Shown here: positions 23,909 through 29,781 of the stretch, one piece after another
How the letters are laid out: each line of letters begins with the position of its first letter
Numbering within the stretch: position 1 is the first letter of the stretch
Source of the DNA: Methanosarcina sp. MSH10X1
GTDB taxonomy: Archaea > Halobacteriota > Methanosarcinia > Methanosarcinales > Methanosarcinaceae
Length of the DNA: 64,000 bases
Direction: 5' to 3'
Assembly: GCF_004099695.1 (NCBI RefSeq)
Contig: NZ_SCHL01000004.1
Span: 1-64,000 of the forward strand
Position numbers and translations under genes: made by a program
The notes under the pieces: model-generated
Seen by the model: only the letters and a program-made list of their open reading frames with translations
What the model was told of the DNA's origin: nothing
Database searches by the model: none

Positions 23909-24136
23909 ATGGCAGATGTAGAAATCGATGTTCGAGGGCAGACCTGTCCGGTTCCGCTGGTAGAGTGCAGAAAGGCTTTGAAGAAAGCCTCTCCGGGGGA
24001 TCTTGTTATTGTGAAAGGAACACATCCGGCGTCGAGAAAGGAAATTCCTATGGCTTGCGAGGCAATGGGGCTTGAAGTGCTGGATATTGAGGATAAAGAA
24101 GGAGGGAAAGAGTGGGAGATAAAGATCCGGAGATGA
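23909..24136 (+). CDS. TusA/SirA-like sulfur carrier protein
   Basis: Sulfurtransferase carrier of 75 residues that passes persulfide sulfur from donors to tRNA thiolation or cofactor pathways. The motif DVRGQTCPVPLVECRKALK has the CPxP active site with the sulfur-carrying Cys. ATG 23909 has GGGGGGT upstream. It starts a run (TusA, DsrE-like, desulfurase homologue, IscU) with gaps of 18, 229 and 77 bases, which suggests joint work in sulfur delivery. Confidence 0.92.
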   Translation: MADVEIDVRGQTCPVPLVECRKALKKASPGDLVIVKGTHPASRKEIPMACEAMGLEVLDIEDKEGGKEWEIKIRR

Positions 24137-24154: not shown

Positions 24155-24574
24155 ATGGGGGAAAAGACGGTAATTATTCTTCACAGCGGCGATATGGATA
24201 AAGTATACAGTGCACTTATAATTGCTAACGGAGCCCTGGCAATGGGTATGGAGGCTTCGATATATTTTACTTTCTGGGGGCTAATGCGCCTGAAGAAAGG
24301 AGAGCTTGATAAAGGTCAGCTTTCCAAGATGAATATGCTGGGACTTGGCAGGCAGATGATAAAGAAAAGAATGGACAAAGCCAATGTAGTTTCACTTGAA
24401 AGATTGATGAACGATTTCAAGGAACTTGGGGGAAAAATAATCGCCTGCGAGATGACCATGGAAATCATGGGTTTAAGTAAGGAAGAACTTCGAACGGAAT
24501 GGATAGACGAATGGGGCGCTGTTGGTTCCTATATTCAGGAAGCAAGAGATGCCAGCGTAACGCTCTTTATCTGA
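24155..24574 (+). CDS. DsrE-like family protein (DsrE2 type)
   Basis: Protein of 139 residues of the DsrE/F-like fold: VIILHSGDMDKVYSALIIANGALAMGMEASIYFTFWGLMRL, then ELGGKIIACEMTMEIMGLSKEEL and a C-terminal GAVGSYIQEARDASVTLFI. The Cys in IACEMTMEIMG is the expected persulfide site of the DsrE2 group. Members act as sulfur carriers beside TusA in sulfur oxidisers and many archaea. It follows tusA by 18 bases with GAGGAG near the start. Partner choice is inferred from context. Confidence 0.9.
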   Translation: MGEKTVIILHSGDMDKVYSALIIANGALAMGMEASIYFTFWGLMRLKKGELDKGQLSKMNMLGLGRQMIKKRMDKANVVSLERLMNDFKELGGKIIACEMTMEIMGLSKEELRTEWIDEWGAVGSYIQEARDASVTLFI

Positions 24575-24803: not shown

Positions 24804-25958
24804 GTGATATATCTTGACAATGCCGCATCCACCAGATTGGATGAACAGGTACTTGAAGCGATGAAGCCCTATTTTTTTGATACTTATGCAGTGGCAACAT
24901 CGGAATTCGGCTATTCTATGGGGATTGACGCAAAGGAAGCACTCGAAAGGTCCCGAGAAAGCATTGCTCTAAAACTTGATGCAAACTCGGAAGAGGTTAT
25001 TTTCACATCAGGATCCACCGAATCAAGCAATACCGCACTTAAAGGAGTTGCCTGGGCTTTTAAAGAGAAGAAAGGAAAGCATATCATTGTCTCGAAAATC
25101 GAGGATTTTCCTGTGCTGAATACCGCAAAAGCTCTTGAGAGAGAGGGTTTTAGTGCAACTTTCCTTGATGTGGATGCTGAAGGGTTTGTAGACCTCGAAG
25201 GGCTGAGAAATGCAATCACAAAGGAAACGGTCCTTGTCTCAATCCAGCAAGGGAACCAGGAAATAGGAACAGTCCAGGATCTGAAAGCTATCTCAGAGAT
25301 CTGTGAAGAAAAAGATGTGCTCCTGCACACAGATGCTACTCATAGCTTTACCAGGCTTCCCCTGAGTATGAAGGAACTGCCCGTAGACCTGATCACCATG
25401 TCCGCCCACACTATTCACGGCCCAAGAGGAGTGGGGGCTCTTTACATCCGGAAAGATACCCCGATAACCAAGTTTATGGACGGCGGTTTTCAGGAATTTA
25501 ACCTGAGGGCAGGAGTGGAAGATATTCCATCAGCAGTTGGTTTTGCAAAAGCCGTAGAGCTCGTAACCGAAGAGGAAAACGGGAGGCTCAAAGCCATGAG
25601 AGATCGGGTAATTGACAAAGCACTTTCCGGGATTCCTGATGTTACGCTCAACGGGAGCAGGGAAAAGCGCCTCCCTCAGAACGCAAACCTGACTTTCCAC
25701 TATGTAGAAGGCGAATCCGTAACTCTGCATATGGATATGAGAGGTTTTGCGGTAAGCACGGGTTCTGCCTGTTTTAGCCGGTCTCTCGAAGCCAGCCATG
25801 TAATCAGGGGTATCGGAGGAGACCATGAGAGAGCGCACGGTTCGGTACGCTTTACCTTCGGGCGCTATAACCGCATGGAAGACGCTGATGCCGCAATTGA
25901 GGCAATGAGTGAGATAGTGGCAAGGCTCAGGGAAATAAGTCCCCTTGCGAGAAAATGA
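24804..25958 (+). CDS. Cysteine desulfurase homologue lacking PLP lysine
   Basis: Aminotransferase class V protein of 384 residues, clearly of the NifS/IscS family (YLDNAASTRLD, GSTESSNTALKG, HTDATHS, ending GSACFSRSLEASHVI with the persulfide Cys323). Key residues are changed: the PLP Schiff-base lysine position (SGHK in E. coli IscS, Lys206) is Thr203 in SAHTIHGPRG, and the active-site His104 position is Asp101 in KIEDFPVL. Classical desulfuration would not work with these changes. Archaeoglobus IscS also lacks the lysine and still forms a complex with IscU, so this may be a scaffold or sulfide-using partner. Start GTG 24804 has no clear ribosome site. It overlaps the open frame of the next gene. 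Confidence 0.9.
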   Translation: MIYLDNAASTRLDEQVLEAMKPYFFDTYAVATSEFGYSMGIDAKEALERSRESIALKLDANSEEVIFTSGSTESSNTALKGVAWAFKEKKGKHIIVSKIEDFPVLNTAKALEREGFSATFLDVDAEGFVDLEGLRNAITKETVLVSIQQGNQEIGTVQDLKAISEICEEKDVLLHTDATHSFTRLPLSMKELPVDLITMSAHTIHGPRGVGALYIRKDTPITKFMDGGFQEFNLRAGVEDIPSAVGFAKAVELVTEEENGRLKAMRDRVIDKALSGIPDVTLNGSREKRLPQNANLTFHYVEGESVTLHMDMRGFAVSTGSACFSRSLEASHVIRGIGGDHERAHGSVRFTFGRYNRMEDADAAIEAMSEIVARLREISPLARK

Positions 25959-26035: not shown

Positions 26036-26671
26036 ATGAAATTTCCTTACAGTCAAAAAGTGCTGGAACATTTCAAGAACCCGCATAATGTAGGAAAGAT
26101 CGAGAACCCTGACGGAAAGGGCCTTGAAGGAAGTCCGGCTTGCGGAGACATGGTTGCAGTTTATATAAAGGTCAATCCCGATACAAGGGTTATTGAAGAT
26201 GTAAAATTCGAATCTTACGGCTGTGCATCAAATATTGCCACAGCCTCAATAATAACCGATCTAGCATTAGGAAAAACTCTTGATGAAGCGAAGAAAATAA
26301 CCTGGAAGCAGGCTGCTGAAGAACTTGGCGGATTGCCTCCGATAAAAGCCCACTGTTCAGTGCTTGCAGTTGAGGGCCTGCGAGCCGCAATCAAGGACTA
26401 TGAGGAAAAGCATGGGCTTATAACCGAGAAGGAGCCCACAACCGAAGAAGTTGTCAAGAAGAGACTTAAACACGTTATGAACCCCCTGACAGGGCTTGAT
26501 ATCATCCGTACAAACCTTATCCTTAAAACCAGTGTTGAGGATGGAGTGGTGAGAGTAGTTGTGGATTTGCCTGCAAACCATCAGTTTGCTCCGGCGATAA
26601 AAGAGGATATTGCGGAAAAATTGGGGTCTTTATGGGATGTCGAGAGGGTTGATGTGGTGTTTACGGCCTGA
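26036..26671 (+). CDS. iscU: IscU-type Fe-S scaffold fused to DUF59/MIP18 domain
   Basis: Fe-S cluster assembly scaffold of 211 residues. The N-terminal IscU domain has the three cluster Cys and the Asp: SPACGDM (Cys36, Asp38), YGCASN (Cys63) and KAHCSVL (Cys107). From about residue 137 a second domain, VMNPLTGLDIIRTNLILK to VERVDVVF, matches the DUF59/MIP18 family used in Fe-S targeting (SufT, CIA2). ATG 26036 with AAAGGTGAG upstream is preferred over the ATG at 25955 that overlaps the desulfurase homologue. It follows the PLP-lysine-less desulfurase homologue directly. Confidence 0.93.
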   Translation: MKFPYSQKVLEHFKNPHNVGKIENPDGKGLEGSPACGDMVAVYIKVNPDTRVIEDVKFESYGCASNIATASIITDLALGKTLDEAKKITWKQAAEELGGLPPIKAHCSVLAVEGLRAAIKDYEEKHGLITEKEPTTEEVVKKRLKHVMNPLTGLDIIRTNLILKTSVEDGVVRVVVDLPANHQFAPAIKEDIAEKLGSLWDVERVDVVFTA

Positions 26672-26729
26672 GTGATAGAATCGTATCATGGTTTAAGGGA
26701 AATAAGAACGCTATATGGTAGGGGGTAAT

Positions 26730-27524
26730 ATGAAGGGTGAAAAAATGACATATTATTTATGTCTACTCACAGCGACTGCGATCCTCCTTTCCGGCTGTGC
26801 AATAGGGGAGTGCCAGCCGCAAAAAGGGAATTGCATTATGAAGCCAGCTCAAATGGAAACGTTTGAGGGGGAAAATAAAACTCTGGGCAATGGAACTGTC
26901 TATTCCTGGGTTACGCTTGACACCGAAGGAAATCCTTCATCAATAGGAGTAAACTTCACAGAATCAGCCCTGGAGGAACTGCCAGAAGCGGTTGTAGAGT
27001 ATGCATTTGATCTGCCAGAAGAAGCTGCTTCTACAGCCTATGACCATGTAGGAATTGATTGGAATCCGGCTGGACATGACCCGCATGGGATCTATGATAA
27101 GCCGCATTTTGATTTCCATTTTTACATGATAAGCCCTGAAGAAAGGGATAAAATTACAGCTTCTGATAAAGACTCAGAGAAATTATCAAAAGAGCCGGTT
27201 CCCGGTTATATCCCCGAAGGATATGTTTCCACACCCGGAGGAGTACCCAGAATGGGAGCACACTGGATAGATCCTGAAGCCCCTGAGTTTAAAGGACAGC
27301 CCTTTAATGAGACCTTTATCTATGGGTTTTACAACGGGAAAATGGTTTTCGTCGAACCGATGGTTACAATAGCCTTCCTTGAGGCAAAACCGGAAATAAC
27401 GAAAGAACTCAAGCTTCCGAAATGCTATCCGGCAGGTGCATACTACCCCACTAACTATTCCATAAGCTATAATGAAGCGAGTAAAGCGTATACGGTAGCC
27501 CTGGAGAATCTAACCCTCAGATAA
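26730..27524 (+). CDS. Lipoprotein, DUF5602-like (TTHB210-like domain)
   Basis: Exported lipoprotein of 264 residues. The signal peptide ends in the lipobox LLSGC. The mature part contains YDHVGIDWNPAGHDPHGIYD and PHFDFHFYMISPEERDKI, a His-rich pattern seen in DUF5602 proteins that could bind metal, plus GGVPRMGAHWIDPEAPEF. ATG 26730 has GGGGGT upstream and gives Lys residues before the hydrophobic core; ATG 26715 and 26745 are possible. It follows iscU by 58 bases. Role unknown; possibly a metal-binding surface protein. Confidence 0.78.
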   Translation: MKGEKMTYYLCLLTATAILLSGCAIGECQPQKGNCIMKPAQMETFEGENKTLGNGTVYSWVTLDTEGNPSSIGVNFTESALEELPEAVVEYAFDLPEEAASTAYDHVGIDWNPAGHDPHGIYDKPHFDFHFYMISPEERDKITASDKDSEKLSKEPVPGYIPEGYVSTPGGVPRMGAHWIDPEAPEFKGQPFNETFIYGFYNGKMVFVEPMVTIAFLEAKPEITKELKLPKCYPAGAYYPTNYSISYNEASKAYTVALENLTLR

Positions 27525-27636: not shown

Positions 27637-29781
27637 TCAGGCTGGAACCTGTTCTTTCTTTTCCCTGTCCCAGTGCCGGTGCTTTGCAATCGCAGTGGTG
27701 AAGGATTTGTTAAAATCGCTCCTATCCCCTTCTTTGACGGCAGTTACGACACCTTTATCGGAGACTAACGGAATCTCTTTGTCAACCGATTCCTTCCCTG
27801 CAAATTGTATATCTGGCAGGTTTGCAGCTTTGAATAACTCTACGCCTTCACCGGTTGCCCCCAGTGCTTTGCAGTGCCGGAATGCCTCATTGACGAAATG
27901 GATTGCATCTCCCTGCATTTTCAGGGTCTTTACATTCTCTTTTCCTCCCGGGATATATACGGCGTCGTACAGTACTGATTCCGTAGTGACGTAGCTTTTA
28001 TCAACCTCTATTTCTTCCCCGCTTGAACTCTTTAGCATCCCCTGGTGTTCAGAAACAATATGGGTTTTTGCTCCGCCAGCCTCTAAAGCCTGCTTTACCT
28101 GGCTAACATCGTTATGATTATACCCATCCGCAGCAATGATGGCAATCTTTCTGGTTTTAATGGTGTTCTTCACATTACGCTCCGAGCGCTCCTGGCTGAC
28201 ATTCGGAGACTCTTTTGTGACAGGGGATCCTCCTTTCTTTTCAGGAGCAGGGACACCTACCCCCTTTGCAATTTCAATTGCAAGATCTCCGTCCACATTG
28301 TTGAACATATCAACAACCGCTTTCCGTATATTCTTATCATTAACTTTTCCTATCTCAAAATGGAATGCTTCTATAATGTGTTTCTTTTCCGGCTCCGACA
28401 TACTGTTCCAGAATAATTTGGCCTGGCTGAAAAAGTCTTTGAACTTCTCACTGCGGGAGCGGATCTTTTTACCCTCTACCTTTTCCATATAGTGGACGTA
28501 TCCGCCTTCTTCTCCAGAAGCCGGACGAGGAAGGTTTTCCCCTACCGTGTTAGGGAAATAACTTGTTTTGCCTTTGTTTATCGTCGTACGGTGATAGCCC
28601 TCTCTTTGATTATTGGCTACCGGTGCCAGCGGCCGGTTAATCGGGATTTCCTGGAAATTCGGACCACCCAGGCGGATTAATTGCGTATCGAGATATGAGA
28701 AAAGGCGCCCCTGAAGGAGCGGGTCGTTGGAAAAGTCGATACCTGGAACCACATTTGCCGGGCAGAATGCTACCTGTTCGGTTTCAGCAAAGAAATTATC
28801 AGGATTGCGGTTAAGGGTCATCTTACCTATCCATTTAATAGGTACATCCTCTTCCGGCCAGATCTTGGTGGGATCTAGAATATCGAAGTCGAATTTAAAC
28901 TCGTCCTCTTCCTCCAGGATCTGCACTCCGAACTCATACTCCGGATAGTCTCCCATCTCAATTGCTTCCCAGAGGTCACGCCGGTTAAAATCGGGATCTT
29001 TTCCTGCTATTTTCTGAGTTTCATCCCAGACAAGGGAGTGAATGCCAAGCAGGGGTTTCCAGTGAAACTTTATAAATCTCCCCTTGCCTTCCGAATTAAC
29101 GAAACGGAAGGTGTTAACCCCAAAGCCCTCCATCATGCGGTAACTCCTGGGAAGCGCACGATCGGAAAGAACCCACATAATCATGTGTGCATTTTCCGGG
29201 TGGCAGGAGACAAAGTCCCAGAATGTATCGTGGGCTGCCGAAGCCTGGGGTATCTGGTTGTCCTGTTCGGGTTTAATCGCATGGACAAGATCAGGGAACT
29301 TAATAGCATCCTGAATAAAGAATACAGGCATATTATTGCCGACAAGGTCATAGTTCCCATCCTCAGTGTAGAACTTTGTCGCAAAACCCCGGACATCCCT
29401 GACGGTATCAGCCGAGCCTCTAAAACCTACAACCGTCGAAAACCGTACAAAGACAGGCGTTTTCTTATTAGGATCCTGAAGGAATTTCGCACTCGTATAT
29501 TCCTTCATAGGCTCATAGACCTGGAAATACCCGTACGCTCCGGATCCACGGGCATGTACAACCCTTTCCGGAATCCGCTCATGATCAAAATGAGTTAATT
29601 TCTCCCTGAAATGGAAATCTTCAAGCAGGGTTGGTCCCCTTTCCCCTGCTTTGAGTGAAATATCTGTATTGCTAACTCTAACACCCTGATTCGTTGTCAG
29701 GAATTCACGCTCAGGATCTTCACGGACCATCTCTAACTGCTCGTCTTTGCTCTTTTCATCGACTATCCTCTTCTTCTCCAC
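27637..29781 (-). CDS. katE: Large-subunit (HPII-type) heme catalase
   Basis: Breaks down hydrogen peroxide. The protein of 714 residues has the clade 2 architecture: N-terminal extension, catalase barrel and a C-terminal DJ-1/PfpI-like domain (from about 545, [27 protein letters not shown] and the rest in pieces). Catalytic His76 is in [11 protein letters not shown], Asn149 in [10 protein letters not shown], and the heme-ligand Tyr363 in [10 protein letters not shown]; their spacings (73 and 287) equal those of E. coli HPII. GTG 29781 is the start, with GGTG nine bases before it. No signal peptide. Catalases of this type are patchy in methanogens and point to acquisition from bacteria and to oxygen tolerance. 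Confidence 0.95.

Follow-up and report, generated by a model that had tools for sequence, protein, structure and literature searches.

How sulfur is delivered to Fe-S clusters in methanogens and other archaea, where cysteine is not the donor, is an open question, and a gene of Methanosarcina sp. MSH10X1 poses it in particular form, since its product has the build of the cysteine desulfurase IscS without the lysine to which PLP would be joined. The gene lies in the window (the whole stretch of DNA analysed, 64,000 nucleotides) between genes for sulfur carriers and a gene for the scaffold IscU (Table 1), and a disarmed IscS so placed suggests Fe-S assembly from a source other than cysteine. With IscU, disarmed IscS and carriers in one cluster, and the genus genetically tractable, this offers a definite candidate for a sulfide-based route.

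Table 1. Genes of the cluster and diagnostic codons of the IscS homologue, in window coordinates
Feature	Position	Strand	Basis
TusA-like sulfur carrier, 75 aa; carrier Cys13 of CPVP motif at 23945-23947	23909-24136	+	Pfam TusA PF01206, E 1.1e-20
DsrE2-like protein, 139 aa; conserved Cys98 at 24446-24448	24155-24574	+	Pfam PF13686, E 7.3e-37
IscS homologue lacking the PLP lysine (IscS1 type); 384 aa, starts with GTG	24804-25958	+	ORF, alignment, profile, predicted model
Asp101 codon, position of E. coli IscS His104	25104-25106	+	alignment; 49/49 relatives
Gln152 codon, position of E. coli IscS Asn155	25257-25259	+	alignment; 49/49 relatives
His180 codon, position of E. coli IscS Gln183	25341-25343	+	alignment; 49/49 relatives
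Thr203 codon (ACT), position of Schiff-base Lys206 of E. coli IscS	25410-25412	+	alignment; 49/49 relatives
Cys323 codon, position of persulfide Cys328 of E. coli IscS, in STGSACFS	25770-25772	+	alignment; in every aligned Thr-type row
IscU with C-terminal FeS_assembly_P domain	26036-26671	+	Pfam NifU_N PF01592, E 6.1e-43; FeS_assembly_P PF01883, E 1.4e-13

An intact gene with an altered active site

The sequence-only reading had taken the gene to be intact, with threonine for the Schiff-base lysine, aspartate for the acid/base histidine and the persulfide cysteine kept, and on all these points it is borne out by the 384 uninterrupted codons and by alignment with E. coli IscS, from which the residue equivalences used here derive. 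(Several orthologues have ATG at the position of the GTG start.) The pocket changes at Gln152 and His180 come on top of those it had named. Retained are His202 (E. coli His205) and Asp177, the equivalent of E. coli Asp180, the partner of PLP N1. The fold of a type I cysteine desulfurase (IscS/NifS) is present, the predicted model (mean pLDDT 87.5, pTM 0.88; low-confidence stretches at 29-37, 226-230 and in the Cys loop, 321-328) having a TM of about 0.9 to solved IscS and NFS1 structures. The loop persulfide cysteine of that class is also present, while its Schiff-base lysine and its catalytic histidine are not. The protein falls well short of both curated NCBIfam cut-offs, with 430.2 vs 530.75 bits for NifS and 378.8 vs 643.2 for IscS; the two lysine-bearing IscS paralogues of the same genome, at 620.7 (L003) and 611.9 (L004) bits, are above that for NifS.

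From established PLP chemistry and the precedent of Archaeoglobus IscS we infer that the protein has no cysteine desulfurase activity. PLP may still be bound, given that its site retains Asp177 and Thr72, and slow cleavage of cysteine, with PLP held non-covalently or another base standing in for the lysine, is conceivable: Ser200 of the same site is often retained too in the Thr-type proteins, as those sharing Thr203 are termed here, and PLP is drawn in the lysine-less Archaeoglobus protein in the legend to a structure figure of PMC9769115. However, lysine and histidine have both gone, the phosphate-cup Thr243 has given way to Val, Leu, Ile or Pro, and Archaeoglobus IscS is itself reported inactive as a desulfurase in the part of PMC7585200 available, so that such residual catalysis is improbable.

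The altered pocket is a fixed one. Fifty Thr-type sequences were aligned (two of them, L037 and L062, being from one genome) and, when L038 is not counted, which is truncated but has the same residues, Thr203, Asp101, Gln152 and His180 are found in 49/49, as are Ala29, Val30, Thr32 and an inserted Phe35. Identity throughout these clade members means that the losses are due neither to sequencing error nor to chance. Invariant columns number 142 of 384, and dN/dS is 0.03-0.075 in eight of nine pairs, the ninth being saturated; Thr-type iscS is under purifying selection. A duplicate of IscS decaying without function would fit the lack of a Thr-type gene in 28 of 111 genomes of the family, an in-frame stop in the gene of G076 and, from the part of PMC7585200 available, the recovery of recombinant M. 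acetivorans IscS1 in inclusion bodies. The invariant columns argue against it, dN/dS rules out decay of iscS1 as a general explanation, and the probability left to the idea is very small. The other 83 genomes, as counted from the listing of family genomes, have matches of at least 68% identity, some of them partial.

Decay of the cluster is nevertheless seen locally, and is recent. Two genomes of the genus to which the window belongs have a dsrE full of stops (G090:C14:3445-3828 and G091:C27:26762-27175), and in G076 (contig C17) there are stops in both iscS1 and dsrE. One in-frame TAG is present in the otherwise conserved dsrE of G009, and in-frame TAG also occurs in the otherwise conserved tusA of G091. 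TAG can encode pyrrolysine in Methanosarcina.

Carriers upstream and the scaffold downstream

That the gene stands directly ahead of iscU, as first read, is confirmed: the likely iscU start is the ATG at 26036, 77 bases past the iscS stop, with a longer reading frame opening at 25955 and overlapping that stop. The partners of Thr-type IscS have their working cysteines, with the carrier Cys in 42/42 neighbouring TusA and the conserved Cys in 41/41 neighbouring DsrE; 49/49 IscU have all three cluster Cys. All 49 IscU partners of the Thr type fall in length classes of at least 200 aa, whereas all 38 partners of lysine-bearing IscS fall in those of 120-159 aa, and partners of the Asp type (aspartate at the lysine position) are mixed. 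The C-terminal FeS_assembly_P domain (PF01883), or at least the matching added length, is present in 49/49 partners of the Thr type. Its fusion may couple the scaffold to target delivery. Docking of TusA on IscS1 is putative, the docking residues known from E. coli not being retained: Glu21 of TusA is Val, within the CPVP motif, and Arg220 of IscS is Lys or Glu.

Directly after iscU is a gene for a TTHB210-like domain protein (PF18197, E 1.9e-18; 26715-27524, plus strand) with a secretion- or lipoprotein-signal-like start, and convergent with the cluster, from the ORF list, is a large catalase-like gene with an added C-terminal domain (27637-29781, minus strand). Promoter-like sites number 10 vs 6.8 in shuffles, by a sigma-70 scan that does not suit archaea, and terminator-like sites 9 vs 4.4; neither count carries weight here.

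Lysine-less iscS is more widespread than the family of the window. Named genome contigs were scanned with an Archaeoglobus-first alignment and the best 80 loci kept, among which lysine-less genes have Asn-Asp at the His-Lys positions (one, L159, has Ala for the lysine) and hosts include Archaeoglobi, Bathyarchaeota, Hadarchaea, Thermoplasmata, Asgard archaea and Methanoperedens. In a first set, association was counted where at least 1200 bp of upstream DNA was available, as tusA and/or dsrE no more than 1200 bp upstream in the same orientation, and the count was made without Archaeoglobus IscS lacking DNA, the window and repeat loci, E. coli and the SufS-type L001. By this measure 94 of 106 lysine-less genes have one or both carriers upstream vs none of 38 that bear the lysine (one of the 38, L002, being SufS-type). 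The Asp/Ala type contributes 52 of 58 (TusA at 50, DsrE at 29) and the Thr type 42 of 48, with both carriers at 41. Loci with shorter upstream DNA gave 4/5 for the Asp/Ala type, 0/1 for the Thr type and 0/3 for lysine-bearing genes. For a second set, 196 genomes were taken evenly from the phylum, and 80 regions, fetched in the order listed and none of them from the family of the window, yielded 82 IscS genes; a carrier is upstream of 25/26 of the Asp type, 0/1 with Gln and 0/55 with lysine (25/27 lysine-less in all), the two sets not being fully independent since they share loci (e.g. L084/L192) and identical pairs. The gene with Gln, L253 (genome G211), is one for which neither tusA nor dsrE was found upstream; L159 has both nearby. 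On a Methanophagales contig (L088/L204) a lysine-bearing iscS is head to head with tusA-dsrE-iscS-iscU on the other strand, the iscS of the latter being lysine-less.

Within the family, dsrE is found without Thr-type iscS in none of the 111 genomes and together with it in 79, among them G090 and G076, where it was scored present though broken, and G009, with its one TAG. At the cut-off used it was not found in four of the 83 Thr-type genomes: G016, which is 76% complete with a gap at the locus, G060, with a gap and the gene at a contig edge, G067 and G091. In G067 Thr-type iscS1-iscU1 is retained and neither tusA nor dsrE was found. Ten genomes of genus g7 have the tusA-dsrE pair elsewhere in the genome, still together.

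On the tree the lysine-less genes fall into two clades, Thr and Asp, and since the free tree keeps these apart while the one in which they are joined has the higher score (lnL +21.46, p-AU 0.858), one loss of the lysine and two are both possible. The association accordingly represents one or two evolutionary events only, and a paired test on the tree has just 1-2 independent pairs and no power.

A proposed route for sulfur and its rivals

The first-sight suggestion of an IscU partner that has lost cysteine cleavage is compatible with all results here and may be regarded as partly supported. In the form favoured here, at a little better than even, IscS1 would be a PLP-independent partner of IscU whose cysteine binds the cluster or relays persulfide, and which is fed by DsrE/TusA. 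A desulfurase-dead IscS would be retained as partner of its own IscU and would not use a PLP Schiff base to generate persulfide from cysteine. The invariant Cys323, on a mobile loop, would reach IscU and there either coordinate the forming [2Fe-2S] cluster for a time, in the manner of the solved Archaeoglobus IscS-IscU complex, or be the point from which persulfide is relayed to IscU. The sulfur would most likely be inorganic sulfide or polysulfide entering via the neighbouring DsrE and TusA, with the presumed flow DsrE to TusA to IscS to IscU. The casting of the carriers as sulfur supply comes from gene order and co-occurrence only. Entry by this route would make the flow opposite to that in E. 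coli, which in the accounts available runs from IscS to TusA, with TusA and IscU competing for IscS. That competition counts against a relay, as do the missing E. coli-type TusA contact, G067 with its lack of carriers, the other genomes in which dsrE was not found or is broken, and the restriction to one or two clades.

A reading with less for IscS1 to do is that it provides Cys323 as a cluster ligand and keeps IscU stable, with free sulfide as the source and TusA-DsrE serving another pathway from the same operon. This is how Archaeoglobus IscS has been proposed to act, with M. acetivorans IscS1 suggested to do likewise (PMC7585200, in the part available), and it would suit both G067 and the 6 of 58 Asp/Ala-type loci with neither tusA nor dsrE upstream. 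However, it leaves unaccounted for the linkage of the carriers, in both sets, exclusively to lysine-less and never to lysine-bearing iscS, and the failure of dsrE to occur in the family apart from Thr-type iscS; though it merits attention, it is judged unlikely.

Sulfur might instead travel outward, with SufS or another IscS loading Cys323 and IscS1 passing the sulfur to TusA and DsrE for thiolation of tRNA or a cofactor. This would match the direction in E. coli, and possible donors are at hand in the genome of the window, where SufS-type and lysine-bearing IscS genes number two each, beside three for IscU. Pertinent here is a scan for class V aminotransferases in 14 genomes (E up to 1e-25). 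Seven genomes of g7 and g10 have SufS-type genes along with Thr-type IscS, and lysine-bearing IscS was not found in them by that scan. But in five genomes of group f9, which is probably Archaeoglobaceae-like, the same scan revealed no SufS-type gene, second IscS or lysine-bearing IscS, that is, no other desulfurase, each having one Asp-type IscS and four of them also one L006-like enzyme. That IscS1 adjoins its own IscU, cluster cysteines intact, also speaks against outward traffic, for which the prospects appear poor.

A broader proposal, made tentatively and at rather under an even chance, is that the favoured route represents a PLP-free, cysteine-independent version of ISC spread over several archaeal phyla, in which DsrE/TusA would supply the loop cysteine of a disarmed IscS and this in turn IscU. 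In Methanosarcinaceae the pocket would in addition have been rebuilt as a fixed Asp101-Gln152-Asp177-His180-Thr203 constellation, possibly a site for a metal or small molecule.

Relation to known systems

In the available part of Deere et al. 2020 (PMC7585200), three iscSU clusters are described in M. acetivorans. Its IscS1 (MA0808), with IscU1 (MA0807), lacks the essential lysine as does Archaeoglobus IscS, and was suggested to act like it; STGSACFS is at 318-325 and an IscU of about 24 kDa follows. The window protein corresponds in having STGSACFS at the same numbers, no lysine and a larger IscU downstream, and the two are probably the same gene in different species, the likeness having been drawn from Table 1 and the text of that paper rather than from alignment to the MA0808 sequence by name. 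The core idea of a lysine-less IscS1 acting like that of Archaeoglobus is thus already published for M. acetivorans. There iscSU1 is placed in a cluster with four genes whose function is given as unknown, and the main text, as far as available, does not mention TusA. No report of an archaeal link of tusA/dsrE with iscS and iscU was recognised in a literature search covering mostly the openings of abstracts, with subscription journals largely missing. What is added here, at least with respect to the passages of published work that were available, is the link to tusA-dsrE, the constancy of the four pocket changes and the regular partnership with a fused IscU.

IscS of the IscS2 and IscS3 types in Methanosarcina, and MisS of the MIS system (the names MIS, MisS and MisU being those of PMC12442378, seen in part), have the same fold and are likewise followed by iscU. 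Unlike the window protein, they retain Lys, His, Asn and Gln and have no tusA/dsrE upstream. From the available part of PMC10500019, loss of IscSU2 in M. acetivorans gives a cysteine-specific defect, and a sulfide-specific phenotype is absent after deletion of SufBC. The carriers of the window are of the same families as those of the DsrEFH/TusA relay of Allochromatium vinosum, whose DsrE, according to the part of PMC3397948 available, is persulfurated by sulfide alone, without a desulfurase. The acceptor there, however, is DsrC and not an IscS-IscU pair.

The closest solved relative by sequence is Archaeoglobus fulgidus IscS (PDB 4eb5, 4eb7 and 4hvk; the D199K mutant is 4r5f), and in its complex with IscU Cys321 is a cluster ligand, as given in the part of PMC9769115 available. 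Common to it and the window protein are the missing lysine, the retained loop cysteine and an adjacent iscU, and the Archaeoglobus group also has tusA/dsrE upstream. The statement in the sequence-only reading that Archaeoglobus IscS has lost the same lysine holds for the lysine itself and does not extend to the rest of the site: the Archaeoglobus protein has Asp199-Asn198-Ala176 where the window protein has Thr203-His202-His180, and it retains the equivalents of His104 and Asn155 where the latter has Asp101 and Gln152, so that the Archaeoglobus hallmark, Asn-Asp at the His-Lys positions with the His104 equivalent kept, is absent from the window protein. If the proposal made here is true, Archaeoglobus IscS would no longer be an isolated oddity but one representative of a system that extends across several archaeal phyla.
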